The notes beneath the pieces are model-generated. The model saw nothing but the letters and a program-made list of their open reading frames with translations, made no database searches and was not told the origin of the DNA. This document shows positions 44,053 through 57,353 of a stretch of 64,000 bases of DNA, piece by piece. The stretch is from Streptomyces xanthii (lineage in GTDB: Bacteria; Actinomycetota; Actinomycetes; Streptomycetales; Streptomycetaceae), in contig NZ_CP061283.1 of assembly GCF_014621695.1 (NCBI RefSeq), forward strand, positions 1-64,000, written 5' to 3'. Position numbers and translations under genes: made by a program. The first letter of the stretch is position 1, and each line of letters starts with the position of its first letter.

Positions 44053-45150
44053 TCATGCGGCCAGGGCGAGCCATCGCCCGAGCTGTGCGCTGAACTTGTC
44101 GACGCCGTCAGCCGCGTGCCGGGCCCGGCGGGCCTGGTCGCCGCGGCGCCGGATATAGGTGAGCGTCGTCGCTGGATCGTCGTGTCCGGCGAACTCCTGG
44201 ATCTCCTCCAGAGGGACCCCGTCGTCGTGCATGTGGGTCAGGCGGGAGGCGCGCAGAACGTGCGGGGTCAGGTCACGGCCGGGCAGGACCCCAGCCCGTT
44301 TCCCCAGGCGGGTCAGGATGCGGTCGACGTCGTGGCGGTCCAGCCGCCGCCCTTCGGAGTCCAGGAGGAGCGGCCCGTCAGTCCGGCCGTTGATTAGCAG
44401 GACCAAGAGCTCGGCGAGCTGGTGCGGGAGGGACCACTGCCTGCCCTTGTCGCCCTTGCGGGTCAGGTCGATCACGGGGTTGCGGCCGTCGCGGAAGTCG
44501 GTGACGTCAGCCTCGCACCACTCGCTGACGCGCCCGGCGAAGGTGTAGACGAGGCTGGTCACAACGACGTCGCGCAGGCACTCCGCCCAGTCGAAGAGGG
44601 CGGCGAACTCGTCGACCTCCAGCACGGGGGTCGCGGTGGTCTCGTCGTGGCGGTCGATCTTGGGCCGGTTGTGGCGGGTGACCGGGTTGGGGATGTAGGT
44701 CTGAGACTCCTCGGCGGCGAAGACGGTCAGGGAGGACAGGGCGGACAGGCGGCGCGCGATGCTGCGTTTGGCCTGCTCACGCTTCTCCTCGCTCAGCCGC
44801 CAGGTGGTGACGTCACCGCGGGTGATGCAGCCGATGAAGAAGCGTTCGTGCCCGAGCTCCTGCGCGAACTGGTGCCAGAACCGGATGTCGTCGGCGTAGT
44901 TCCGCTTCGAGTTGATGCTGGGGATCGTGGAGGACGCCAGCCAGGCCATGACGGTGGTGAACGCCTCGGCGGTGCAGATGTCGCGCAGGATGTCCATGCG
45001 GTAGCGGCGCGGGCCCAGCGTGCGCTTCACCGGATCGCGCGGGGCGACCTGCCCCAGGTCCTCACGGATCTTGGCGAAGGCGTCTTCCGCTCGGGTGGTG
45101 GGTCGTGCGATCTCGCCGGCGGGGCGCTCCGCCAGCTCCGGGCGGGGCAT
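44053..45150 (-). CDS. Tyrosine recombinase/integrase, 365 aa
   Basis: Complete catalytic set: Arg in FAGRVSEW (about 209), Lys in TRKGDKGRQW, HVLRASRLTHM with HxxR (about 302-305), and FAGHDDPATTLTYI with the second His and the nucleophilic Tyr (about 326-335). N-terminal SAM-like core-binding domain at about 60-160. It could integrate the element, resolve multimers or move a cassette; no att site is evident next to it. ATG at 45150 or GTG at 45153 overlaps the DUF6221-like gene. Confidence 0.85.
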   Translation of the reverse strand: MPRPELAERPAGEIARPTTRAEDAFAKIREDLGQVAPRDPVKRTLGPRRYRMDILRDICTAEAFTTVMAWLASSTIPSINSKRNYADDIRFWHQFAQELGHERFFIGCITRGDVTTWRLSEEKREQAKRSIARRLSALSSLTVFAAEESQTYIPNPVTRHNRPKIDRHDETTATPVLEVDEFAALFDWAECLRDVVVTSLVYTFAGRVSEWCEADVTDFRDGRNPVIDLTRKGDKGRQWSLPHQLAELLVLLINGRTDGPLLLDSEGRRLDRHDVDRILTRLGKRAGVLPGRDLTPHVLRASRLTHMHDDGVPLEEIQEFAGHDDPATTLTYIRRRGDQARRARHAADGVDKFSAQLGRWLALAA

Positions 45151-45464
45151 CACGGCTTGAAGTCCATCTGAAAGTCGGGGTGCTCGGAGAAGGCCGCGAA
45201 GGCCGTGCAGCGCAGCGACCAGCCGAGGGCATCGATCTGCCCGGGGAAGTAGTCCGTGTGCTCGACCTTGGCGGCGCGCTCGAAGTTGGCGGCGAACTCG
45301 TCGAGGACCCTCTGTGTGCCGGCCAGCAGCTGCCTCTCCCGTTCGTCGGCGGCCGGCGCGCGTTCAGTGATGCGTGCCCGCAGGAAGGCCACCAGTGCAC
45401 GGTCGCGGTCCAGCTTGGCCTCGTTCTGCACGATCATCTGGAACTTCACGCCTTGGTCGTCCAC
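45150..45464 (-). CDS. DUF6221-like protein, 104 aa
   Basis: ATG at 45464 (MDDQGVKFQMIVQNEAKLDR). ALVAFLRARITERA near the start and the ending AFSEHPDFQMDFKP fit the pattern I associate with DUF6221 (AFLRARLDED... HPDYREEWRP). Function unknown. Coupled to the integrase gene. Confidence 0.55.
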   Translation of the reverse strand: MDDQGVKFQMIVQNEAKLDRDRALVAFLRARITERAPAADERERQLLAGTQRVLDEFAANFERAAKVEHTDYFPGQIDALGWSLRCTAFAAFSEHPDFQMDFKP

Positions 45465-45578
45465 GCGTCCTCTCCTTGCTCTGGATCACCAAAGCTACCG
45501 GTGGGGTCGGACAGGACCCACGGTTCGGCCCGCGCCGGGGGTCCATGGGCGAGGGCCACCCTTGGAATACTGGCGGGC

Positions 45579-47129
45579 ATGTCCGGCATCACCGACCGCC
45601 CGAGTTCCGCGCCGACCGCGCAGGACATCGCCCTCGCCGAGCGCCTCGCCACCCTCGCCGGAGAGGCCCTGTCCAGGCCGACCACGGAGGTGGCCGACCA
45701 GCTCCGGGCCCACAGCGTGCACATCGCCCTGCTCGAACGGCAGGCGCCCGTCGTCGCGGAGCTGCTGAGCATGTGCCGGGCGGCGGCCGAACGCTGGCAG
45801 GCAGGCGGATACGGGCACTTCAGCGTCGCGCGGAACCTGCCCGCCGCGCCCCCGGCCATCGCCAGCCTGCTCCAGTCCGCGATCGACGGCGAAGACGATT
45901 CCCAGCTTCACGAGCTGATCGCACGCGCCTGTGCAGCCTCCACCGAGAACGCGCAGAAGCTGATCGCGATCGGCGCCGGGGTGCACGCGCTGCTCGAAGC
46001 CGGGCCCCGCCGCTTCCCGGCTATGGCCGCCACCGAGCCGATCGACCCCCGGCGCCTGCCCGACCTGCGCGCCCGTCTGATCAGCGCGCAGCAGGGCAAG
46101 CCCGCCGTGAACCGGCTCGCCCTCGCGCTGTTCGAGAACACCGGCACCCTCGTGCCGTACCTGGACGCCGCCGACGACGCGGCCCGGGTACTGCTGGCGC
46201 AGGAGAACGACCGGCTCGCCAAGGCCCGGCTGTACCACGTGGACGAGGAGATGACCGAAGCGGCCATCCGCAAGGCGGAGCGCGGCCGCAAGGGGGCGCT
46301 AGCCCCGCACCGCGTGCCCGCGCGCCGCGGGTTCATCGCCTTCGGCAAGCCGCTCGTGCGGACCGTCCCGGAGGGCGAGGAACGGCCGGCGGACGTGGTC
46401 GCGGTGTCCTGGGGGCCGTGGGCCGCCGACTTCGCGCACGCCCCCGGGCACCTGCAACCGACCCCGGTCGCGGGGCCGCGTCAGCCGTTCTGGCGCTGGT
46501 TCGGGCCGGACGGCGTACGACACATCGAGGCTTTCGACGGCCGGGAGCACCCGACGTGGTGGCTAACCTTCTGGACACGCCCCACCCACGCCGTGCCCGG
46601 GACTCCGCCGCTGATGGCCGACAACGAGACCACGATCGGGGCCACCGAGACGCCGGGCCCGATGCAGCTCGGCACCACCGACGAGGTCAGTCACGTCGTC
46701 TTCGCGTGCTGGGACTTCATCACCCAGGAGCAGGTCACCAAGCGGCCGATCACCCAGCAGCGCGTACAGCCGCGCAAGCCGACCGACCTGCGCCGCGACC
46801 GGCGTAAGGGTGTGGTGGACGACTCCGCCGTTCACCTCGTCACGCTGCGGGGCCGCCGTCCTCGCCCCACCGAGTCGTCCCCGGCCGCGCCCGTGCCGAT
46901 CGGGCGGAAGCTGGACTACCGCCAGGTGATCGCGGAGTACGACCGTTCCCACTGCATGAATCCGCACCTGCACCGGGACGACCCCAACAAGGAGCGGCAC
47001 CACCACGAGGAGATCACCGTGATCGAGCACGTGCGCGGTCCTGACGGGGCCCCGCTGCGCCCGACGAGGGAGTCCCGCACCGTGCACCAGCTCACGGCGG
47101 AAACGGCGGCGCCCGCAGACCCGAAGTAG
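45579..47129 (+). CDS. Large hypothetical protein, 516 aa
   Basis: ATG at 45579 (MSGITDRPSSAPTAQDIALA) without an obvious ribosome binding site; may be leaderless. Helical first half, then a Trp-rich central region (PFWRWFGPDGVRHIEAFDGR; HPTWWLTFWTRPTH) and a basic C-terminus. No family recognised. Convergent with the XRE regulator, so probably not part of the biosynthetic cluster. Confidence 0.6.
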   Translation: MSGITDRPSSAPTAQDIALAERLATLAGEALSRPTTEVADQLRAHSVHIALLERQAPVVAELLSMCRAAAERWQAGGYGHFSVARNLPAAPPAIASLLQSAIDGEDDSQLHELIARACAASTENAQKLIAIGAGVHALLEAGPRRFPAMAATEPIDPRRLPDLRARLISAQQGKPAVNRLALALFENTGTLVPYLDAADDAARVLLAQENDRLAKARLYHVDEEMTEAAIRKAERGRKGALAPHRVPARRGFIAFGKPLVRTVPEGEERPADVVAVSWGPWAADFAHAPGHLQPTPVAGPRQPFWRWFGPDGVRHIEAFDGREHPTWWLTFWTRPTHAVPGTPPLMADNETTIGATETPGPMQLGTTDEVSHVVFACWDFITQEQVTKRPITQQRVQPRKPTDLRRDRRKGVVDDSAVHLVTLRGRRPRPTESSPAAPVPIGRKLDYRQVIAEYDRSHCMNPHLHRDDPNKERHHHEEITVIEHVRGPDGAPLRPTRESRTVHQLTAETAAPADPK

Positions 47130-47168
47130 GTCGACGGCCGCGGCCAGGGAGGACCGGGGTGTGGCCCG

Positions 47169-48488
47169 TCAGGCCGTAGCACGGAGTCGTTCCAGGAGTT
47201 CAGCGACGGGGGTCGTCTGTGCGTAGGGCGACAATTCCGGCTCCAAGTCCTGAATCATCGTCACGCACCGGGGGGCGTTGATCTGGGTGGCTAGGTCCAG
47301 GGATTGCATCGCGGTCGCTGCGGCGATGTCCGGTTCGCCGTCCTGGAGATAGGTCTCGGCCTGGTAGGTCAGGAAGACTGCGCGCGTCTTGGAGCGGCTA
47401 TCGGGCAGTAGGGCAATGCCCTCGTCCATGAGCCGGTGAGCTTGGTGGCGCTGGCCGAGTTCTGCGAGGCAACGCCCGCTGTCAGCGGCAAGGTCAGCGT
47501 GTGACATCCACGAGCACCAGGCGGGCGGTGGGTCGTACGACGGGGCGCCCAGCGCTTTCTCCGCGGCGGTGAGCGCCTGTCGGCACCGGCCACTCTCGTC
47601 AAGTGCGGCCAGGGCGCGGGCCTGGCGGAGGTGGAGAAGGGACCGGGCGGCGGGGTGCTGGGTGCGGGGGATGGCGTGTTCGAGGATCGCGGCCGCAGTA
47701 CGCGCGTCCTTGAGCCACAGCATCTGATAGGCGAGATCGGAAAGGATGCCCGCGCCGAGGTCGCGCTGCCCGGCGGTGTGGGCGTTGTGCAGGGCGGCGT
47801 GCCAGAAGCGGCCGGCGGAGGCGTGGCGGCGTTCGTCGAACTTCTGCCAGGCGATGGCCTGGGAGAGGGAGGCGGCCAGGGTGTGGAGCCGTCGTTCAAC
47901 GGAGCGGGTGTAGCGGCCTTCGCTGATGATGTCGGTGACCGTGGTCAGGTGCTCGCCCAGCAGGCGGCGGGTGCGTTTGCGGCGCTGGGTCGCCAGGTGG
48001 ATCAGCTCGGCGCCGGTGGTCTCCAGCCAGTCGAGCAGTTCGGTGTCGACCGCGAGCCGGGTACCCCAGCGGGGCGACGGCCCGGATTCGGTGACAGCCC
48101 ACTGGTAGGCGAAGGCGGCGAGGGCGCCGCTGGTGTAGGCGATGAACGACCGGCGGTCCAGGGAGGTCATCAGGGCCTCTCGCAAGGAGGGGACGGCGTT
48201 GTGCGGGCCGAGGGGCAGCGGCTTGTCCTGGCCCGGGAGCCAGTTGGGCCAGCCGAGATGGGCGACGGCCGCGTAGTCGATGCCGAAGACCTCGGCGATG
48301 AGCGGCTGGGACTCTTCCTCGTCGGGGGTGACCCGGCCGGTCTCCCACTTGGAAACCCGCGAGCCTCTGGTTCCCGAGCGCAGGCCGCGGCGTGCGGCGG
48401 CCTGCCGGATGCGGCGGGCCAGTTCCTCCTGTGACCATCCGCGCTCGTTCCTGGCGTACGCGAGGGGGTGGCGGATCTCGTCGTCCAC
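47169..48488 (-). CDS. XRE-family regulator with TPR-like C-terminal region, 439 aa
   Basis: N-terminal XRE helix-turn-helix (HPLAYARNERGWSQEELARR ... SRVSKWETGRVTPDEEESQP, about 8-62), then a hydrophobic segment and helical TPR-like repeats to the end (ARSLLHLRQARALAALDESG; YQAETYLQDGEPDIAAATAM). This architecture is common among Streptomyces pathway regulators. It diverges from the pentapeptide/P450 operon across 265 bp and is the likely regulator of it. Confidence 0.8.
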   Translation of the reverse strand: MDDEIRHPLAYARNERGWSQEELARRIRQAAARRGLRSGTRGSRVSKWETGRVTPDEEESQPLIAEVFGIDYAAVAHLGWPNWLPGQDKPLPLGPHNAVPSLREALMTSLDRRSFIAYTSGALAAFAYQWAVTESGPSPRWGTRLAVDTELLDWLETTGAELIHLATQRRKRTRRLLGEHLTTVTDIISEGRYTRSVERRLHTLAASLSQAIAWQKFDERRHASAGRFWHAALHNAHTAGQRDLGAGILSDLAYQMLWLKDARTAAAILEHAIPRTQHPAARSLLHLRQARALAALDESGRCRQALTAAEKALGAPSYDPPPAWCSWMSHADLAADSGRCLAELGQRHQAHRLMDEGIALLPDSRSKTRAVFLTYQAETYLQDGEPDIAAATAMQSLDLATQINAPRCVTMIQDLEPELSPYAQTTPVAELLERLRATA

Positions 48489-48539
48489 CAGCCCATTGCA
48501 CCACCGGCGTCAGCTGCGGGAGAGCCGTTCCGGCAAACC

Positions 48540-48561
48540 GGGGATAGGGCGGGGATAGGGC
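48540..48561 (+). repeat. Two tandem copies of GGGGATAGGGC
   Basis: Perfect 11-bp tandem repeat, one helical turn apart, in the region between the XRE regulator and the pentapeptide gene. It is a candidate binding site for the regulator. The rest of 48489-48753 has no supported gene. Confidence 0.5.
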
Positions 48562-48753
48562 GTCGCTCTAGGCGCGGCGGCCTGCGGGCGCTGTACTCGT
48601 CGTGGTCTCGCCCGGCGCCCCCGTGCGACCGGACGGACCGGGTGAAGACCTGTGTCCTCACCGTCTTCGTGCCCGCCGGCGAGGGGGCCGCGCAAGCTCC
48701 TCGTTCTGGGCGGGACGTCTCCGCCGCCGTCGATGCACAGGGAGGGGGCTGCC

Positions 48754-48771
48754 ATGTCGTACGACCACTGA
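48754..48771 (+). CDS. bytA: bytA-type pentapeptide precursor gene, MSYDH
   Basis: An 18-bp gene: ATG TCG TAC GAC CAC TGA. GGAGG ends 8 nt before the ATG, an ideal ribosome binding site, and a P450 gene follows 71 bp later. The product MSYDH fits the MxYxH pattern of biarylitide precursors (known member MRYYH), in which the P450 joins the Tyr ring to the His imidazole and the two N-terminal residues are later removed. The Asp between Tyr and His is notable because an Asp/Asn hydroxylase-type enzyme is encoded downstream. Far too short for standard gene finding. The symbol is used as a class name. Confidence 0.8.
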   Translation: MSYDH

Positions 48772-48784
48772 GCCCGAGGTGCCG

Positions 48785-48813
48785 GGGGCGGGCCCGCGCG
48801 GCGGGTCCGCCCC
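48785..48813 (+). terminator. Hairpin between pentapeptide gene and P450 gene
   Basis: 13 bp can pair in RNA (one G-U) with a 3-nt GCG loop. Likely an attenuator or 3' stabiliser giving more precursor than enzyme transcript. Confidence 0.6.
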
Positions 48814-48842
48814 TGTCCGTCCGTTTCCGGAAGGGATGAGCG

Positions 48843-50009
48843 ATGCCGTCAGCCACCGACCTCTATGACCCACTGGACGCCCGGGTCCTGCGTGACCCGT
48901 ACCCGGTGCTGGCCGAACTGCGGCGCACGACGCCGGTGTTCTGGCACGAGGGGATGGGCTCGTGGGCGCTGACCCGGCACGCCGACTGTGTGCGAGTGCT
49001 GAGGGACCACGCCCTGTTCGCCCGCGATCCGCGCCGCACCGGGGGGACGGTCCCGGAGCCGTCCTTGAGCGTGCAGACCCTCGACCCGCCGCAGCAGAGC
49101 CGCGTGCGCTCGCTGTTCATGACGGCGCTGCGGGCTCAGGACCTCGGGGCCGTTGAGGAACGCGCCCGCCGCCTGGTGACCGGCCGGCTCGATGTCCTGG
49201 CGGCAGGCGGTCAGTTCGATGTGGTCGCGGAGCTCGCGGTACCGCTGTCCGTGGCCGTCGTCGCGGATCTGCTCGGGGTGGAACCCCCGCCGTACGCCGA
49301 GTTCGCCGAGGTCTCGGACGCCATCATGCGGAGCATGGACGGCGGGCTGGACCCCTCGCTCGTGGAGCCGGGGCGAATCGCCCGGCAGCGGCTGAGCGAG
49401 CTGGTCGACGGCTGGTTCGCCGCCTCGTCCCGGCCGGGCCTGCTCGATCACGTCCGCCGGGCCGGACCCGGTGCCGATCCGCGGGCCCGGCTGTACGTGA
49501 AGAACACCGCGCGGGTCATGTTCCAGGGCGGCTACAGCACGATGGCGGCCGCCGTCGGCAACGCGGTGGCTGTCCTCCTCGACCGTCCCGAGGCCCTGGA
49601 GCAGATGCGTGATGCGGCGCTGCTGGCCACCGGCGTGGACGAACTGGTGCGCTTCGACGGGCCGGTGCAGGGCACCACCCGCGTGGCGGTGCGCGCGTGC
49701 CGGATCGGCGGGGTCGACGTCGCTGCGGGGCAGAAGGTGGTGGCGCTGTTCGCCGCCGCCAACCGCGATCCGGATGCCTTCCTCGGAGCGGACCGGCTGG
49801 TGCTGGATCGCGCACCGAACCCGCACCTCGGCTACGGGTGGGGTCCGCACTCCTGCATCGGTACGACCGTCGCCCAAGCGGGCCTGCGCGCCCTGGTCGC
49901 GGCTCTCGCCTCCTACCCGGCCCAACTGGTCGCGGCCGGCGAGGGTGTGCGGCGCCGTACGGCGACCATGCGGGCGTATCAGACGCTGCCCGCGCGCCTT
50001 CACCGCTGA
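48843..50009 (+). CDS. bytO: Cytochrome P450, predicted Tyr-His cross-linking (bytO-type), 388 aa
   Basis: Class I bacterial P450: ELVR (ExxR) at about 267-270 and heme-binding GYGWGPHSCIG with Cys at about 338. The I-helix reads FQGGYSTM where AGxETT is usual, so the acid of the acid-alcohol pair is absent while Thr is kept. It starts 71 bp after the MSYDH gene with GGAAGGG upstream, so the predicted reaction is C-N cross-linking of Tyr3 to His5. P450 identity is firm; substrate is inferred from context. Confidence 0.85.
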   Translation: MPSATDLYDPLDARVLRDPYPVLAELRRTTPVFWHEGMGSWALTRHADCVRVLRDHALFARDPRRTGGTVPEPSLSVQTLDPPQQSRVRSLFMTALRAQDLGAVEERARRLVTGRLDVLAAGGQFDVVAELAVPLSVAVVADLLGVEPPPYAEFAEVSDAIMRSMDGGLDPSLVEPGRIARQRLSELVDGWFAASSRPGLLDHVRRAGPGADPRARLYVKNTARVMFQGGYSTMAAAVGNAVAVLLDRPEALEQMRDAALLATGVDELVRFDGPVQGTTRVAVRACRIGGVDVAAGQKVVALFAAANRDPDAFLGADRLVLDRAPNPHLGYGWGPHSCIGTTVAQAGLRALVAALASYPAQLVAAGEGVRRRTATMRAYQTLPARLHR

Positions 50010-50086
50010 CCCGTCCTCGGCGGCGCCGCCCGCTCGGCACCGCCGCCGGGGCCTGCCCCTCTTCCCTCTGCGTCAGGAGATCCGCC

Positions 50087-51496
50087 GTGCGCATCCTCGT
50101 CGGCAACCACATCGACCCGTCCATTCGGGCCCGCGGCGACATGCGGGCCTGGACACAGCGCCTGCTGTGGTTCGCCCGCCCCGGTGACCTGCTCGTCCTG
50201 TGCTGCGAGCCCGACGACGCGTTCCTCGACTACGCGCTGGCCCACACCGGTGTGAAGCGGAGCGAGCTGGCCGTTTTGGTGGCGCCCGCCGGAGCGTGGG
50301 GCGACCAGCTCCTCGACCCGGCCGCGCTCACCGCCCCAGTCTTCGTGAAGGCGGTGCGGGCCGCGCTCGACACTGCGGGCGGACCGGGGGCCGTGACGGA
50401 GGTGTTCGCGCTATGGCCGTCCGCGTCCGTCGCCCGTTTCGCCGCCGCCCTCGGCATCGAGGACCGGTTCCCCGGCGCCGCGTTCTTCGCCCAGGGCGGC
50501 GGGGAGATCGGCAACAACAAGGCGAACTTCCGGGCCCTGGCGGCGGCCGCAGGAGTGCCGATCCTGCCCGGCCGTGTCTGCCGCAGCCGCGCCGAGGCCA
50601 TCGCCGCGACCGGGGAACTGCTGGAGTTGTCCGGCGGCGGGGCGGTCGTGGTCAAGCAGGCCCACAACGGTGCCGGGGTCGGCAACCAGCTCCTCGTGCG
50701 CGACCTGGAGCTGGCGGTGGACCACGTCGGGGCCCGCCACCTGCACCACCTGGCGCCCGGCGAGGACGGCATCGCCGCGTACTGGGATCAGCGCTGGCCG
50801 TGGGCGAGCGAGGATGGCCGGTGGCCGGTCGTCATCGAGACCTTCGCGGCCGGCGCGGACGCGGTGTACTCCGAGCACTACGCCGCCGACACCGGCAGCG
50901 AGCCGACCGAGATGGGCCGCCTGCTCTACGTCGGCCGGCGCCTGAGCCACCAGGTCGTCCCCCTCGACGGCGTGAGCGACCCGGTCCGGGCGGCGCTGCT
51001 GGAGGGGGGCACCCGGCTGGCCGAGGCATACCGGGCCTTCGGCTACCGCGGACACCTGAGCGCGGACGCCCTCGTGCTGCCCGATGGGTCCGTGGTGTTC
51101 ACGGAGGTCAACGCGCAGGTCTCCGGGTCGCTGCACATCTACCAGCAGATCGCCCGCCACGTCGTGGACGTCGCCGCCGCCCCGCGCCGTCAGGTGGTCG
51201 AGTACCACGTCCCGCCCACCTGGACCGTGCCCGACTTCGACACGTTCCTGGCCGCGCTGGACGAGACGGGCCTGACCTACGCCCCGGCCACCCGGACCGG
51301 AGTGATCGTGTCGATGCCCGCCATCCCCCTCGCGGCGGGGGCGCCGGTCCAGTTCGTGTTCTGCATCGCCTACGACCCCGCCACCGGCTACGACGACGCG
51401 TTCGCCCGGCTCGGCGAGCGCTTCCAGACCCTGCCCGCCGGCGCCGTCGACGCCAGCGAGCACGTCGGCCACACGGCCGTGTCCTTCTCCTCCTGA
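50087..51496 (+). CDS. PGM1-like ATP-grasp peptide ligase, 469 aa
   Basis: GTG at 50087 with AGGAG 7 nt upstream. ATP-grasp features: GNNKANFRALAAAAGVPILP, GGAVVVKQAHNGAGVGNQLL (nucleotide and Mg binding) and DGSVVFTEVNAQVSGSLHIY. A pre-ATP-grasp domain and an extra C-terminal domain match the PGM1-related ligases. PGM1 of the pheganomycin pathway joins a guanidino amino acid to a ribosomally made peptide; the presence of an amidinotransferase two genes on supports a similar reaction on the MSYDH-derived product. Confidence 0.75.
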   Translation: MRILVGNHIDPSIRARGDMRAWTQRLLWFARPGDLLVLCCEPDDAFLDYALAHTGVKRSELAVLVAPAGAWGDQLLDPAALTAPVFVKAVRAALDTAGGPGAVTEVFALWPSASVARFAAALGIEDRFPGAAFFAQGGGEIGNNKANFRALAAAAGVPILPGRVCRSRAEAIAATGELLELSGGGAVVVKQAHNGAGVGNQLLVRDLELAVDHVGARHLHHLAPGEDGIAAYWDQRWPWASEDGRWPVVIETFAAGADAVYSEHYAADTGSEPTEMGRLLYVGRRLSHQVVPLDGVSDPVRAALLEGGTRLAEAYRAFGYRGHLSADALVLPDGSVVFTEVNAQVSGSLHIYQQIARHVVDVAAAPRRQVVEYHVPPTWTVPDFDTFLAALDETGLTYAPATRTGVIVSMPAIPLAAGAPVQFVFCIAYDPATGYDDAFARLGERFQTLPAGAVDASEHVGHTAVSFSS

Positions 51497-51510
51497 CCGG
51501 GAGCCCCACC

Positions 51511-52488
51511 ATGACCACCACCACGGCGGCCGCCGAGGCGGCCCAGCTCACCCCGGCCTTCGACCTCGACGCGGACCGGCTCGCCGACGAGCTCGCGGCC
51601 GTCACCTCCCACACCTGGAACGTGCAGCGCACCCACACCTTCGGCGGACAGGTCGGCCATCCCGCCCCGATCGACTGGCGCGTCCTGCCGCTGCGCAGTC
51701 TCGGCGGCGACGCGGACCGCACCGACCCGGGCGGTCCCGGTCCGCAGCCGTTCGCGCCGACCCGCTGGCTTGAGCACCTGCCCTACCTCGCCCGCCTCCT
51801 GGACCAGGTCCCGGCCCCGCTGAACGCGGTCAGGCTGATGGCGCTCGGGCCCGGCGCCGTCTCCGCAGCGCACTGCGATCCCAAGTACCGGCTCGACCGC
51901 GGCCTCACCCGCCTGCACATCCCCATCGTGACCACGCCGGACGCGGTGCTCGTCCTGGACGGCGTCGAACACTGCTGGCAGCCGGGCACCCTGTGGTACG
52001 GGGACTTCTCCCGCGAGCACCTGGTCCGCAACACCAGCGACGCGGTGACCCGCGTCCACGTCGTCATCGATGCCCTCCTCACCGCCGAACTCGCAGGCTG
52101 GTTCCCCGCCTCCTGGCAAGAGCTGTTCGCGCGCGGGGAGGTCCTGTTCAACCGCCCCGCCCCGGCCGCCGCGTCCGCATGGTCCGCCGCGTTGCCGTAC
52201 GACGCCCTCTTGCCCAGCGGGTTCGCGGACTTCGACGCGGCCGCCCCGCTGGACGGCTCCCTCCTGCCCGCCCGCCTCGACCGCGCCGACGGCGACGGCC
52301 TGGCCCTGACCGTCGCCGGACGCTCCTTCGCGCTCGTCGCGGCCGGCGACGGCGGCGAGTGGCGGTTCTCCGGCTGGAGCGAACAGCGCACCCTGGCGCC
52401 CAGTCCCGACGGCGGCCTGCTGCTGCGGGTCCGTCGCGGCCGCGCGCTCGCCGACCGGCACGTGCCCGCCGAGCCCCGTACCCCCTGA
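51511..52488 (+). CDS. Aspartyl/asparaginyl beta-hydroxylase-type dioxygenase, 325 aa
   Basis: Residues about 105-190 match the Asp/Asn hydroxylase fold: RLMALGPGAVSAAHCDPKYR with H121 and D123, RLHIPIVT, GTLWYGDF, and RVHVVID with H183, giving the 2-His-1-Asp iron site. The C-terminal 130 residues are an unassigned beta-rich domain. Family reaction: Fe(II)/2-oxoglutarate-dependent hydroxylation, classically of Asp side chains. The Asp of the YDH core is the obvious candidate substrate; this is inference. Confidence 0.75.
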   Translation: MTTTTAAAEAAQLTPAFDLDADRLADELAAVTSHTWNVQRTHTFGGQVGHPAPIDWRVLPLRSLGGDADRTDPGGPGPQPFAPTRWLEHLPYLARLLDQVPAPLNAVRLMALGPGAVSAAHCDPKYRLDRGLTRLHIPIVTTPDAVLVLDGVEHCWQPGTLWYGDFSREHLVRNTSDAVTRVHVVIDALLTAELAGWFPASWQELFARGEVLFNRPAPAAASAWSAALPYDALLPSGFADFDAAAPLDGSLLPARLDRADGDGLALTVAGRSFALVAAGDGGEWRFSGWSEQRTLAPSPDGGLLLRVRRGRALADRHVPAEPRTP

Positions 52489-52528
52489 CCCCTGATCCCG
52501 GCCTCACCTGGAAGGAACCGATCCCGCC

Positions 52529-53677
52529 ATGCGCCTGCACAGCCACGACGACTTCACCCCGCTCAAGGAGATCATCGTCGGGTCCGCGGAGAACTACCTC
52601 GGCCACGACCGCGACCTCTCCTTCGAGCTGTTCCACCACGAGAACCTGACCGGCTTCCGCTCGGACTGGGCCTACCCCCGGCTCGCACAGACCGGCACCG
52701 GCACCCGCGGACAGAACTGGGCCGTCAAGCAGCGCTACGCCGAGGAACTGCACGAGGACGTCGAGAACCTGGCCGCGACCCTCACCGGCCTCGGGGTCAC
52801 CGTGCACCGACCGCTTCCGCTGCCGCCCGACGCGGCCCGCATCGCGGGCCTGGGCTGGGAGGCGGCACCCACCCCCGCGCTGAACATCCGCGACAACACC
52901 CTCATCCTCGGGGACCACATCATCGAGACGCCGCCGGCGATCCGCTCGCGGTACCTGGAGACCCAGCTCCTGCACCGCGTCTTCCGCGCGTACGAGAAAG
53001 CCGGGGCCCGGTGGACGGTGATGCCGCGCCCCACCCTCACCGATGGCTCGTTCGATCTGTCCTACGCCCGCGACGCCGCCACCACCCTGGGCGGGCCGAC
53101 CGAGCCGATCGCCGACCCGCAGCCCAGCCCGTACGACGTCGGTCTGGAGATGATGCTCGACGGCGCCCAGGTGCTGCGGCTGGGCCGGGACCTCGTCGTC
53201 AACGTCGCCCAGAACAACCACGAACAGGGCCTCAACTGGCTTCAGCGGCACCTCGGCCACGACTACCGCGTCCACCGGGTGTGGCGGATGGCGGACAACC
53301 ACATCGACTCGATGGTCCTCGCCCTGCGCCCCGGGGTGTTCCTCGCCCGGCACGACGGCATCCGCGACCTGATGCCCGAACCGCTGCGCTCCTGGCGGTA
53401 CATCGTGCCGCCCGAGCCCGATGCGGGCGCCTTCCCCGTCTACGGCGACGACGACCTGGTCCTCACCAGCCCGTACATCGACCTCAACGTCCTCTCCGTC
53501 GATGAGCACACCGTGCTGGTCAACGAGGATTGCACCGGCCTGGCCAAGACGCTGGAGACCGAGGGCTTCGACGTGGTGCCCGTCCGGCACCGGCACAGGA
53601 GGTTGTTCGGCGGCGGGTTCCACTGCTTCACCCTGGACACCTGCCGGGACGGCGGCCTCGTGGACTACCTGTCATGA
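52529..53677 (+). CDS. Amidinotransferase (glycine amidinotransferase / StrB-like), 382 aa
   Basis: Full-length family member. Catalytic Cys at about 366 in GGGFHCFTLD, His at about 258 in ADNHIDSM, and an active-site Asp probably in FDLSYARDA. Start motif FTPLKEIIVG is typical of the family. Known members move an amidino group from arginine to an amine (glycine, scyllo-inosamine). In this cluster it would make a guanidino group, either on a building block used by an ATP-grasp ligase or on the free amine of the peptide. Confidence 0.88.
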   Translation: MRLHSHDDFTPLKEIIVGSAENYLGHDRDLSFELFHHENLTGFRSDWAYPRLAQTGTGTRGQNWAVKQRYAEELHEDVENLAATLTGLGVTVHRPLPLPPDAARIAGLGWEAAPTPALNIRDNTLILGDHIIETPPAIRSRYLETQLLHRVFRAYEKAGARWTVMPRPTLTDGSFDLSYARDAATTLGGPTEPIADPQPSPYDVGLEMMLDGAQVLRLGRDLVVNVAQNNHEQGLNWLQRHLGHDYRVHRVWRMADNHIDSMVLALRPGVFLARHDGIRDLMPEPLRSWRYIVPPEPDAGAFPVYGDDDLVLTSPYIDLNVLSVDEHTVLVNEDCTGLAKTLETEGFDVVPVRHRHRRLFGGGFHCFTLDTCRDGGLVDYLS

Positions 53678-54960
53678 CCGGCGCCGCCGTGCTGCTGCTG
53701 GACGCGGCGGGCCCGGAGTCCGCCGCGCTCGCCCGCGCGGCGGCAGGCCGCGGCCACCAGGTCCACGCCGCCACCGCGACGGCGGACGTGCCGGCCCCGG
53801 CGCCGGAGCTGGCCGGGCAGGTCGTCACCGACTTCGCCCGGCCCGACCGGGCCGTGGAAGAGATCACCGCGTACGCCCGCCGCCGCGGCGTCGGCGCCGT
53901 CCTCACCGCCAACGAGTACCTGACCGAACTCGCCGCGCTCGTGTGCACCGAACTCGGCCTTCCCGGCAACGATCCGCACCTCGCGTACGCCGCCCGCGAC
54001 AAGGCGGCGATGGCGCGCGTGCTCGCCGCGGCCGGTGTACGCGTCCCCTACACCCGTCTCGTCCACGACGGCACCGACCTGACCGACGCGCTCGCAGACG
54101 TGAGGGTCGGCTTCCCGTGCGTCATCAAGCCGGTCGGCGGGGCAGGCTCCGCCGGGGTCACCGTGGCGACCTCACCGGCCGAAGCTGCCACGGCCGCCGC
54201 CACCGCCCGCATGGCGCGCGGGCGGTACGGCGACGACGCGGCGGACATCCTGGTCCAGGCGTACGCCGTCGGCGACGAGTACAGCGTCGAGTCCGTCACC
54301 CAGGACGCCCACACCACGCACCTCGCCATCACGCGCAAGGCGGTGACCGGCGGTGCCCGCCGCGTCGAGACCGGGCACAGCCTCCCCGTGCACCTGCCCC
54401 CGGTGACCGAGGCGGCCGTGCACCGGGAGGTGGCGGCGGCGATCCGCTCGGTCGGCATCCGCCACGGCGCCTCGCACACCGAGGTCGTCATCGACCCCGA
54501 CGGCCGGTGCACGGTCATCGAGATCGCCGCCCGGCTCGGCGCCGGGCACATCGGCGTCCTGCTCCAGCACGCCCTGGGCATCGACGTCTTCGCGGCCCTG
54601 CTCGACGTCGCGCTGGGCCGTCCGGCCGCGCTCTCCCCCACTGCCCGCGGCCATGCCACCGTCCGCTTCGTCACCGCCCCGTGCGCCGGGCGCCTCACCT
54701 CCCTGATCGGGTTCCCGAAGCCGGGGCCGGGGGTGCCGTTCGTGCGCTGGCGGGCGGCGATCGGCGGCGTGGTGAATGCCGCCGGCGTCAACGCCGACCG
54801 GCTGGGCGCCTTCGTCGTCACCGGCCCGGACGCGGCCGAGGTGGAACAGCGGGCCGACCTGCTCGCGCGGCAGATCCGCGTCCGGGTCGCTCCCACACCG
54901 CCCGCACCAGGCGGACCTGATCAGCTCAGCTCGGCGAGCAGGTCGGCCATCGCCCCGTAG
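53674..54960 (+). CDS. ATP-grasp carboxylate-amine ligase, 428 aa
   Basis: ATG overlaps the amidinotransferase stop (ATGA). N-terminal Rossmann-like domain, then ATP-grasp core: DKAAMARVLAAAGVRVPYTR, FPCVIKPVGGAGSAGVTVAT, and HTEVVIDPDGRCTVIEIAAR with the Mg-binding Glu residues. Similar to dipeptide and amino-acid ligases of natural-product clusters. A second ligase suggests two successive bond formations. The 3' end overlaps the convergent kinase gene by 40 bp. Confidence 0.85.
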   Translation: MTGAAVLLLDAAGPESAALARAAAGRGHQVHAATATADVPAPAPELAGQVVTDFARPDRAVEEITAYARRRGVGAVLTANEYLTELAALVCTELGLPGNDPHLAYAARDKAAMARVLAAAGVRVPYTRLVHDGTDLTDALADVRVGFPCVIKPVGGAGSAGVTVATSPAEAATAAATARMARGRYGDDAADILVQAYAVGDEYSVESVTQDAHTTHLAITRKAVTGGARRVETGHSLPVHLPPVTEAAVHREVAAAIRSVGIRHGASHTEVVIDPDGRCTVIEIAARLGAGHIGVLLQHALGIDVFAALLDVALGRPAALSPTARGHATVRFVTAPCAGRLTSLIGFPKPGPGVPFVRWRAAIGGVVNAAGVNADRLGAFVVTGPDAAEVEQRADLLARQIRVRVAPTPPAPGGPDQLSSASRSAIAP

Positions 54961-55907
54961 CTCTCGCGGACCGCGTCCGCCTTCCCCAGCCTGTGCCGCT
55001 CCAGCCGGATCGCGCCCAGGTGCCTCGCCTCGTAGATCCGCGCCCGCCACACCGCACCCTCCGACCGGTCCAGCGGCCCGTAGGACTCCCAGAACGCGGT
55101 CCGCTCGTCGTCCTTGGCCGTCGCCATCCGGATCGTCCAATCCGCCTCCGGTGCCCCGAAGGTGCAGCGGTCGAAGTCCAGCACGCCGCTGATGGTCGGC
55201 ACCTCGGCGTCCCGGTCGAGCAGAGCGTTCACCGTCCACAGGTCGCCGGTCAGAAGGCGGGGTTCGGTGACCTCGTCCAGCACTGCCCGGTCGTGGCCGG
55301 CTACGGCGGCGATCTTGCGCACGTCCGCCGAGTCCAGGCCCGCACCGTCCAGGTCCGCGGCGATGTCCTCCAGCGACGCGATCACGGCCTCGCTCCACGT
55401 GGCGTATCCCGGCCCGGCCACCGGACCGAAGTGCGGTCCCCGCACATCGTGCACGGCACGGGTGACCGCACCCATCTGCCGGAAGAACGTCGGCCACGTG
55501 CTGCGCGGGTACGACCCCAGATGCTCCGGAGCCGGGACACCGTCCAGGTGGGTCTGGATCATCCAGTCCCGGCCGATCACCTGCCCCGTCCAGTCCGCGG
55601 CGATCACCTGCGGCATCAGGTGCGCGATCGGAGCCAGCCACGGCAAGCTGGCGTGCTCGTTCCTCATCAGGTGCAGCTCGCTGCGGAACTGCCGCTCCTC
55701 CGCCGGCGCCGCCCGAAGAATCACCGGACGGTCCCGCCCGGCCAGGGCCACGCGGTAGACGTTGTTGTACATGCCCGTGCCCAGCTCGACCACGGACACA
55801 GGTGCGGCATCATTGCCGAACGCTCGGCGACACACCGCCAGGATTTCCTGCGCGGTCAAGGACTGCTGGAACGCGTCCGCGGTCCGTTCAACTGGCCGGA
55901 AGTCCAT
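54921..55907 (-). CDS. APH/choline-kinase-type phosphotransferase, 328 aa
   Basis: Aminoglycoside-phosphotransferase fold: VVELGTGMYNNVYRVAL (nucleotide loop), LLTGDLWTVNALLD (catalytic loop, usual His replaced by Thr, Asp and Asn kept) and GVLDFDRCTFG (metal-binding DFD-like). Start taken as ATG at 55907 (MDFRPVERTADAF); in-frame starts up to 56006 are possible. Convergent with the cluster and overlapping it by 40 bp, so it could be a self-resistance or modifying enzyme, but the link is only positional. Confidence 0.75.
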   Translation of the reverse strand: MDFRPVERTADAFQQSLTAQEILAVCRRAFGNDAAPVSVVELGTGMYNNVYRVALAGRDRPVILRAAPAEERQFRSELHLMRNEHASLPWLAPIAHLMPQVIAADWTGQVIGRDWMIQTHLDGVPAPEHLGSYPRSTWPTFFRQMGAVTRAVHDVRGPHFGPVAGPGYATWSEAVIASLEDIAADLDGAGLDSADVRKIAAVAGHDRAVLDEVTEPRLLTGDLWTVNALLDRDAEVPTISGVLDFDRCTFGAPEADWTIRMATAKDDERTAFWESYGPLDRSEGAVWRARIYEARHLGAIRLERHRLGKADAVRESYGAMADLLAELS

Positions 55908-56065
55908 TCCGCTCACTGCGTGCACCGCCCCGGATACGTCTCTTCTTCCACCGAGAAACCTACGCTCCCTCATCGTTCGTGTACCGCCCTCACACGAAGC
56001 TCCCAACCACGCGCACCCTCACCTCCCCCTAGAGCTTTCCATGACTGGATAGCTTGCTTTCCACG

Positions 56066-57259
56066 ATGCGGCAGCTTACCTTTCCGATCATGGATAAGGC
56101 AGAGTTGAACCGCCGGTTGACGAACGTCCGCATGAGCCATCGACAGGCACAGGTCCTCAAGCGGGAGTTGCAGGCAGTCGAGCGCCAACGCGACCGGGAC
56201 GTAGCCGAACTCGACGAGTTCGCCCAGGCACACAAGGAGGCCAGGGCCGACGCCAGCCGCAGGTCCCTCGCCCGGGAGCTGGGGGTCACCCACCCCGTGA
56301 TCACCGCCATGATCGAGCGGGCGAAGAAGGACGCGTACCCCACCGACTCGACCCCGCTCGTCCCGGTCCTGTCCGCCTACCAGGCGACGGAGTACGTCAG
56401 GAGCGGGGCCTTCGGTCAGGTCACCGGTGCGCTGGTGGCGATGAGCGAGACGGACATCCTGCTGGAGTCCGGGCGCCACCCCAAGGTGTTCGCGGACGGT
56501 ACGAGGATCGCGGCGCCGAACACGCTGCTGCGTAACGCCGAGGGCGAGCTGCTGGGGGTGGAGGAGTGTCTGGCCGGCTATGGCGGCACGGGTCCGAGTA
56601 ACAGCCTTCGCCTCCTGCGTGACCTCGGCTGGGACGAGGAGGTTGCCCGCGAGGTGTTCCGCCACCGGTTCGTCGAGTTCGACATGGAGCGGGGCGTCAT
56701 CAGGTCGAGCCCGGACACCCTGCACCACTGCGGCGGGAACCTGGAGTTCACCGGCGGGCACCTTGTCGCACGACTGCGCCGCGGCCGGGCCTGGGACCCT
56801 TACGACCGCACCCCGGCCAACGACCCGCTCAGGCTCCGCACCTGGGTGGAGGAGATCCTGAGCCAGCCGGAGAAGCACCCGTGGGCGGCAGGCCCGCGAG
56901 TTGCCCGGGTCTACCTCAATCGGGATACCGCCGTCGGCTTGCAGGACCGCATCCGCTTCCGTCCGGGCGTGCGCAACTCACCGTTCAGCGTGGTGATCGA
57001 GCAGGGCGAGCTTCAGCTCTGGTGCAGCGCCATCTACCCGTCGGACTGGGCCGAACTCCTTTCACAGGAGCAGCTCGACGTCCTGGCGGCGGCGGACATG
57101 TACCCGGCCGAGGTCGAGCCGCGCGGCTGGCTGGACCGATTCCTGCCTCGCCGCCGCGAACGTCCCGACTACATCGACATCTCGACAGACGGCACGGGCG
57201 CGCTCCGGCACGAGCCGGACGGCACGGAGCTCGACGGCGAGACGTTCGAGGGAGCCTGA
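56066..57259 (+). CDS. Hypothetical protein with HTH-like N-terminal region, 397 aa
   Basis: ATG at 56066 (or 56090, MDKAELNRRLTN); no clear ribosome binding site, so perhaps leaderless. A long charged helix (about 15-70) ends in SRRSLARELGVTHPVITAMI, a helix-turn-helix-like segment. The rest is a large mixed domain with no motif known to me. Followed directly by promoter module I. Confidence 0.55.
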   Translation: MRQLTFPIMDKAELNRRLTNVRMSHRQAQVLKRELQAVERQRDRDVAELDEFAQAHKEARADASRRSLARELGVTHPVITAMIERAKKDAYPTDSTPLVPVLSAYQATEYVRSGAFGQVTGALVAMSETDILLESGRHPKVFADGTRIAAPNTLLRNAEGELLGVEECLAGYGGTGPSNSLRLLRDLGWDEEVAREVFRHRFVEFDMERGVIRSSPDTLHHCGGNLEFTGGHLVARLRRGRAWDPYDRTPANDPLRLRTWVEEILSQPEKHPWAAGPRVARVYLNRDTAVGLQDRIRFRPGVRNSPFSVVIEQGELQLWCSAIYPSDWAELLSQEQLDVLAAADMYPAEVEPRGWLDRFLPRRRERPDYIDISTDGTGALRHEPDGTELDGETFEGA

Positions 57260-57269
57260 CCCCCTCCCC

Positions 57270-57353
57270 TCCCGCATCGCCGCAAAAGGTGGTATTGTTG
57301 TCACTGCTGGGAGGGGGTGGCACCTCGACCAGCGTCATCACTCGAAATCTCGC
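57270..57353 (+). promoter_or_regulatory. Promoter module I
   Basis: Most divergent copy: weak -35 TCCCGC (57270-57275), 17-bp spacer, -10 TATTGT (57293-57298), GGGGGTGGCACC leader and ACTCGAAAT tail. It drives 57385-58086. Confidence 0.65.

Follow-up and report, generated by a model that had tools for sequence, protein, structure and literature searches.

Gene content of the locus

We analysed the first 64,000 nucleotides of contig NZ_CP061283.1 from Streptomyces xanthii (the window, by which we mean this whole stretch), which carry an 18-bp gene for the pentapeptide MSYDH, followed on the same strand by a cytochrome P450 gene and four further enzyme genes (Table 1). The locus is quite probably a plasmid-borne hybrid, in which a biarylitide pathway is combined with a pheganomycin-type capping pathway. 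Translations and family scans returned the order and families that an earlier note had read from the letters, namely MSYDH behind a GGAGG, then genes for the P450, a PGM1-like ligase, a hydroxylase, an amidinotransferase and another ligase of the ATP-grasp type. All of these genes are present, but the locus is larger than described there: a kinase gene and a regulator gene had been overlooked, and in some strains a methyltransferase gene also belongs to it. The note had also placed the locus on a plasmid, and indeed the contig is 125,386 bp long and its backbone matches plasmids of PLSDB.

The GGAGG sits 8 nt before the ATG of the MSYDH gene. The encoded pentapeptide has aromatic residues at positions 3 and 5 and its 18-bp gene lies close to a P450 gene, which is the arrangement of a biarylitide locus. 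A scan of 48480–48860 found neither a sigma-70 promoter nor a T-tract terminator, and Rfam gave no match within 44–58.5 kb. The start of the kinase gene at 55907 was set from the starts of its relatives (the mechanical open reading frame reaches 56006); at its 3′ end, the gene overlaps that of the second ATP-grasp ligase, of the L-amino-acid-ligase (LAL) type, on the opposite strand. The Pfam scan gave no match for the amidinotransferase. No peptidase for residues 1 and 2 was recognised within the cluster; a biarylitide leader peptidase may be encoded elsewhere in the genome (PMC12951456).

Table 1. Features of the MSYDH locus and its surroundings in the window (HTH, helix-turn-helix; TPR, tetratricopeptide repeat)
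Feature	Position	Strand	Evidence
Tyrosine recombinase near the cargo junction (plasmid context, outside the pathway)	44053..45153	-	PF00589
Divergent HTH + TPR-like regulator, NsdA family	47169..48488	-	NCBIfam NF053720, 333 bits against a cut-off of 75
Precursor gene MSYDH, 18 bp, ATGTCGTACGACCACTGA	48754..48771	+	YDH kept in 25/25 loci
Intercistronic hairpin, stem 15 bp, without T-tract	48783..48815	+	
Cytochrome P450, pentapeptide-modifying group; heme-ligand motif GPHSCIG; I-helix VMFQGGYST	48843..50009	+	PF00067
PGM1-type ATP-grasp peptide ligase (PreAtp-grasp/PGM1_C), GTG start	50087..51496	+	PF18604, PF18105; PGM1 3wvq 3.6e-72
Oxygenase of the Asp_Arg_Hydrox family	51511..52488	+	PF05118; H121, D123, H170 invariant in 18 aligned rows
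Arginine-type amidinotransferase	52529..53677	+	PDB StrB1 1bwd 1e-46; HID and GGGFHC motifs kept
Second ATP-grasp ligase, L-amino-acid-ligase type (LAL_C2)	53674..54960	+	Family scan
APH-family phosphotransferase (kinase)	54921..55907	-	PF01636, 57 bits

Conservation of the precursor gene and its neighbours

Could the MSYDH gene be a chance open reading frame? We rejected this on three grounds. The 18-bp sequence has a single exact copy in the 8.35-Mb genome, and it is the only 18-bp frame of the form Mx[YWF]x[HYW]-stop (ATG, GTG or TTG start) on both strands of the 64-kb window. No ATG-started frame of this form arose in 6 Mb simulated with the dinucleotide frequencies of the window, one strand being scanned. 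The third ground is its conservation across loci. A scan of genome contigs by ligase alignment yielded 23 loci, 20 with MxYDH before a P450, two without a P450 (L055, L057) and one at a contig end (L059). Together with the window, L028 and the plasmid loci L086, L088 and L089, the 20 make up 25 distinct YDH loci. Left out of the counts were L059/L032 (contig end), L087 (internal deletion), L055 and L057, L033/L034 (precursor MRYDHCL) and, as second copies from the same genomes, L026, L027, L029–L031, L061–L067, L069 and L071; L090, whose P450 is identical to that of L056, enters only the tree and the I-helix count, which therefore have 26 YDH rows.

In all 25 loci, MxYDH with a ribosome-binding site precedes the P450 by 79–136 nt. 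Ser occupies position 2 in 20 of them, Phe in four and Thr in one, while Tyr, Asp and His are unchanged throughout; codons vary synonymously, the stop is TAA in L039 and the start is GTG in L060. The named hosts fall into five actinobacterial families (Streptomycetaceae, Kineosporiaceae, Pseudonocardiaceae, Frankiaceae and Micromonosporaceae). The earlier note had named conservation of the MSYDH frame as one of two points on which its reading could fail; the frame is kept with its gene order in the related loci. By tblastn, the ligase, amidinotransferase, LAL-type ligase and kinase were each matched in 25/25 loci, the ligase gene being broken in L056 and interrupted by a stop codon in L045, and the kinase being matched over 28% of its length in L045 and in two frames in L051. 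Presence of the ligase is true by construction in the 20 scan loci and L028, since these were found through it. A search from the side of the P450 is therefore an independent check: among 290 genomes of the genus it gave seven matches of at least 59% identity, the own genome being one of them, and each is accompanied by MSYDH and the ligase. A PGM1 homologue at 1e-30 occurs in 22 of 295 genus genomes, eight of these being at least 66% identical (own genome and one partial match included). The hydroxylase was matched in 23/25 loci, in two frames in L051 and over about half its length in L056, and is missing from the clusters of L053 and L060. A methyltransferase-type gene lies between the LAL and kinase genes in at least six loci (L028, L043, L045, L056, L058 and L088; by family scan in L043). 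At the same place, L049, L053, L054 and L060 share a 314-aa frame (L054 12856–13797) with no match in Pfam or NCBIfam.

A PDB search with the P450 returned ten distinct chains at 225 bits or more, among them chains named in PMC12186263 as RufO (8SPP, 9DUJ, 9EBY; 286 bits) and P450Blt (8U2M; 242 bits); the next match, at 146 bits, is the first from a clearly different family. A 57-row IQ-TREE phylogeny unites the 26 YDH P450s in one starred clade within the pentapeptide P450s, neighboured in order by the MRYDHCL enzymes with L068, then L091, then the MRYAY enzymes. The fork between MRYAY and YDH carries a support of 91/88 and no star, RufO and P450Blt belong to another branch outside the YDH clade, and the program flagged long branches, foremost that of L094. 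The P450 of the window is hence placed with pentapeptide P450s and not away from cross-linking ones, which was the other point on which the reading of the earlier note could fail. The I-helix stretch VMFQGGYST occurs in 26/26 YDH rows, and so does a Met at the position of RufO Asp169 (mapped along the printed chain), a residue tied to nitration (PMC12186263). Because of these relationships, the I-helix pattern and the Met, the YDH P450 would be expected to work on the pentapeptide, and nitration is unlikely.

We also considered a covariation of Asp4 with the loss of P450Blt Glu238, and dropped it as too weak: Ser stands at this position in the 26 YDH and two MRYDHCL rows, but also in MRYAY and MRYYH rows. 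Gln or Asn at P450Blt position 234 goes with YDH and YDHCL, but is also seen in L068 and L091, where no precursor was found. The L068 P450 (230–2646), 50% identical to that of the window, follows directly on a gene resembling, by eye, the ATP-grasp gene of L033, and no pentapeptide frame was found upstream of it.

Between the stop of the 18-bp gene and the P450 start, a stem of at least 8 pairs folded in 36/36 loci (25 YDH, 11 others). In dinucleotide shuffles, the longest perfect stem exceeded chance at 0.05 in 15 of 20 representatives (10/13 YDH, 5/7 others), with a mean of 12.3 against 6.5 in the shuffles; for control upstream stretches, 13 of 149 exceeded chance, with means of 6.4 and 6.1. 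The stem was not significant in L054, L058, L060, L070 and L094. The signal from folding energy is weaker, with z between -0.6 and -4.5 over 14 spacers and -1.56 for the spacer of the window, for which 11 of 200 shuffles folded equally well. Structure in this spacer had been seen before in one case, since the paper on myxarylin lists a predicted structure for the bytA–bytO spacer (PMC8708641). We speculate that the hairpin may balance the precursor against the enzyme message.

A relative of the regulator is adjacent in 19 of the 24 loci with enough upstream sequence (L046 was left out). Sixteen were matched by tblastn (two at 26–27% identity, two over two frames) and those in L051, L052 and L089 through a shared gene, that of L089 being assigned to the NsdA family by NCBIfam.

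As to the plasmid setting, a plasmid of S. griseorubiginosus NBC_00586 (L096) shares stretches of 92–96% identity with the window that end at 45514 and resume at 57280 (a single short piece, with gaps, is at 83.5%), and holds a different, unrelated 7.2-kb cargo where the window has 45515–57279; the tyrosine recombinase near the left junction is shared. By this comparison, the locus is a plasmid cargo that can be exchanged. The plasmid of NBC_01241, typed as conjugative in PLSDB, bears the cluster at about 80% identity. A decayed copy is found on the KN37 plasmid (L087 4914–9218), in which an internal deletion has taken out everything from the precursor through the P450, the PGM1 homologue and the hydroxylase into the first part of the amidinotransferase, while the LAL and kinase genes remain; 12 nt are shared at the deletion junction. 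The 1.6 kb at 45523–47141 of the window have copies of 81–90% identity on at least four other Streptomyces plasmids, and did not align at the corresponding place of the NBC_01241 plasmid.

Proposed pathway and its alternatives

From the anatomy, conservation, family membership and linkage observed, we infer the following reactions. Translation of the 18-bp gene would give MSYDH, and the hairpin behind it may raise the precursor over the enzyme message. The P450 would couple Tyr3 to His5 with the loss of two hydrogens, more likely through a C–C bond, and a host peptidase would then cut off Met-Ser and free the Tyr amine. The amidinotransferase would transfer the amidino group of arginine to the alpha-amine of an amino acid, which the PGM1 homologue would join to the Tyr amine. 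The second ATP-grasp enzyme may add a further amino acid or build a dipeptide unit, and the PF05118 enzyme may hydroxylate one residue, either Asp4 or an added unit. Finally, the APH-type kinase would phosphorylate the product and so protect the producer.

That the P450 cross-links Tyr3 and His5 is very probable from its sequence relationships. For the bond, we lean weakly towards C–C by analogy, because both MRYAY enzymes and SavB make C–C links, the latter between Tyr and His (PMC13417212, section 12). N-terminal capping by the PGM1 homologue is likely: the protein aligns to residues 1–409 of PGM1 including the FTExN stretch, which we take to bind metal. PGM1 itself couples a guanidinoacetic acid unit to a small core peptide (PMC8939145). 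The amidinotransferase retains the HID and GGGFHC motifs of the arginine:glycine enzyme, which presumably contain the catalytic residues. It is 69–71% identical to relatives in the P450-free loci L055 and L057, and 63% identical to one adjoining a PGM1 homologue in L107, whose neighbouring genes, judged by motifs, presumably resemble a type III polyketide synthase (PKS) set. In L105, a 67–68% relative adjoins a gene that looks oxygenase-like by eye, and no other pathway enzyme was matched there.

The hydroxylase has no PDB relative at 1e-3. A strict link between Asp4 and hydroxylation is doubted because the gene is missing from two of the 25 YDH clusters (L053, L060); the L053 genome has a 42% relative on another contig. 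In the sav cluster of Saccharothrix variisporea, the hydroxylase accompanies a precursor whose fourth residue is Val instead of Asp (PMC13417212, section 12). Further relatives (L112 6132–8429, L113 7604–9810) share one frame with an ATP-grasp-like region or adjoin an LAL relative; in the fetched stretch, neither the P450 nor the PGM1 homologue nor the amidinotransferase was matched. A general link of hydroxylase and ATP-grasp enzymes is weakened by L117 and L118, near-copies from one genus, whose hydroxylase comes without a match to either ATP-grasp enzyme.

Several points weigh against this pathway. Residues A231, H234, E238 and S239, named as important in P450Blt (PMC10929621, PMC12186263), are V, Q, S and T in the YDH P450s (mapped along the printed chains), so that the Tyr–His cross-link itself is extrapolated. 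Among enzymes that have been tested, the closest may be those acting on MRYAY, such as SlyP, if our MRYAY loci are SlyP-like, and these are described as making Tyr–Tyr C–C links and no Tyr–His link (PMC13417212, section 11). A PGM1 homologue is likewise present in the MRYDHCL loci, whose amidinotransferase shares just 27% identity. The product of the sav cluster shows no sign of its amidinotransferase or hydroxylase having acted (PMC13417212, section 12), and deletion of the ATP-grasp and amidinotransferase genes did not affect thiovarsolin production (PMC6511847).

How else could the same genes be read? It is rather improbable that no amino acid is added at the N-terminus, the Tyr amine being amidinated directly, Asp4 hydroxylated and the C-terminal His extended by both ATP-grasp enzymes. 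The sav cluster would fit, as it couples an amidinotransferase and the same hydroxylase family with MRYVH and these two are the only tailoring enzymes named (PMC13417212); however, at 3.6e-72 the ligase here is homologous to PGM1, an enzyme that attaches a guanidino acid to a small peptide (PMC8939145). Hydroxylation of Asp4 is further at odds with L053 and L060, which retain YDH without a clustered hydroxylase, although the relative elsewhere in L053 could act. That the P450 nitrates or hydroxylates Tyr3 without a cross-link, YDH merely supplying a modified tyrosine as in rufomycin, is very unlikely. RufO structures are indeed among the top-scoring PDB matches, but RufO falls outside the YDH clade, its Asp169 is replaced throughout that clade, and His5 is invariant in 25/25 loci. 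Moreover, neither a nitric oxide synthase nor a non-ribosomal peptide synthetase (NRPS) was recognised among the neighbours examined (the frame at 45105–47129 was unscanned, that at 56054–57259 has no family match, and the rest of the genome was not searched).

The kinase may well serve self-protection by phosphorylating the product; APH-type enzymes often serve resistance, and its gene lies after the operon on the opposite strand. It is conceivable, though clearly less probable, that it instead provides a phosphorylated intermediate, as StrB1 acts on an inosamine phosphate: the top PDB match of the amidinotransferase is an inosamine-phosphate amidinotransferase, and the kinase is as constant across loci as the biosynthetic genes, but it has no PDB relative at 1e-3 as a guide. 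Unlikely, too, is that the product is not an antibiotic but a signal for the divergent regulator. The frequent adjacency of the regulator and the lack of antibacterial, antifungal and cytotoxic activity of cross-linked YVH, in a paper that calls biarylitide function unknown (PMC13417212), would agree with a signal, whereas the regulator was not found in 5/24 loci and a kinase better suits resistance. We know of no peptide binding by the NsdA family.

A broader and tentative idea is that the amidinotransferase, PGM1 ligase and APH kinase (with the LAL enzyme in L055, not in L057) are a transferable warhead cassette, which would make a toxic N-amidino peptide unit and its own immunity and would have been combined with the YDH biaryl scaffold as well as with a framework that has no P450. 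If so, YDH biarylitides would show activity of an antibiotic type, in contrast to the plain tripeptides, and the kinase would mark the acting part of the molecule. The P450-free clusters L055 and L057, from Amycolatopsis and Nocardia, contain the amidinotransferase, PGM1 homologue and kinase (LAL in L055 alone) together with a MenD-like enzyme of the thiamine pyrophosphate-dependent type (scanned in L057) and a gene that looks transporter-like by eye. Another variant is a heptapeptide gene, MRYDHCL, upstream of a related P450 (L033 13818–14978, L034 14668–15828), with PGM1 and amidinotransferase relatives; L033 also has cysE-like and cysK-like genes and a methyltransferase gene.

Relation to known systems

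The hybrid pathway is real and widely conserved, and its class is already in print. The earlier note had called it apparently undescribed, which fails in part: PMC13417212 (JACS Au, July 2026) reports, besides the sav cluster, 277 biarylitide clusters, of which 47 combine a Pgm1 homologue with Asp as the fourth precursor residue and are described there as hybrids with the pheganomycin machinery. The same pairing of a Pgm1 ligase homologue with Asp4 is found here, and the locus of the window and these clusters, which share the 18-bp precursor and the P450, are probably the same class. No product of the Pgm1/Asp4 clusters is given in the abstract, passages and sections 8, 11 and 12 of that paper, and by word search its main text mentions no phosphotransferase, methyltransferase or hairpin, and 'plasmid' solely as a cloning tool. 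Literature searches, in which subscription journals are mostly uncovered, returned no relevant paper for MSYDH, MxYDH, MFYDH or MRYDHCL and, among titles and passages, none characterising a product of pheganomycin machinery with a P450 or amidinotransferase. As far as these searches reach, it is new that a kinase and a regulator are linked to the cluster, that it has relatives without a P450 and others with MRYDHCL, that the hairpin is general and that the cargo is swapped between plasmids. The conserved amidino-capping set with its kinase gives concrete grounds for expecting activity and self-protection and names the enzymes to test, and the locus, being short and plasmid-borne, can be transferred and expressed whole in a laboratory Streptomyces. 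The gene table of 25 loci, the P450 residue pattern and the hairpin are aids to finding 18-bp genes that gene callers miss.

With the sav cluster, the locus shares a pentapeptide, a P450, an amidinotransferase and an Asp/Asn hydroxylase; sav differs in its MRYVH precursor, in being described with no more than two tailoring enzymes and in a plain C–C cross-linked YVH as the sole product found (PMC13417212). With pheganomycin it shares the PGM1-type ligase, an amidinotransferase and a ribosomal peptide as one partner, whereas the window has a pentapeptide precursor and a biarylitide-type P450; no type III PKS or phenylglycine genes were seen among the genes scanned at 44–57 kb or the annotated names of the syntenic plasmid stretch (the frame at 45105–47129 was unscanned and the rest of the genome was not searched). 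The ketomemicin (ktm) pathway likewise has an ATP-grasp peptide ligase and an amidinotransferase, but makes a pseudopeptide without ribosome or NRPS from six genes, none for a P450 (PMC11943689). Finally, RufO of rufomycin and P450Blt also act on a pentapeptide from an 18-bp gene, yet they stand outside the YDH clade, catalyse nitration or a C–N link and have other I-helix residues.

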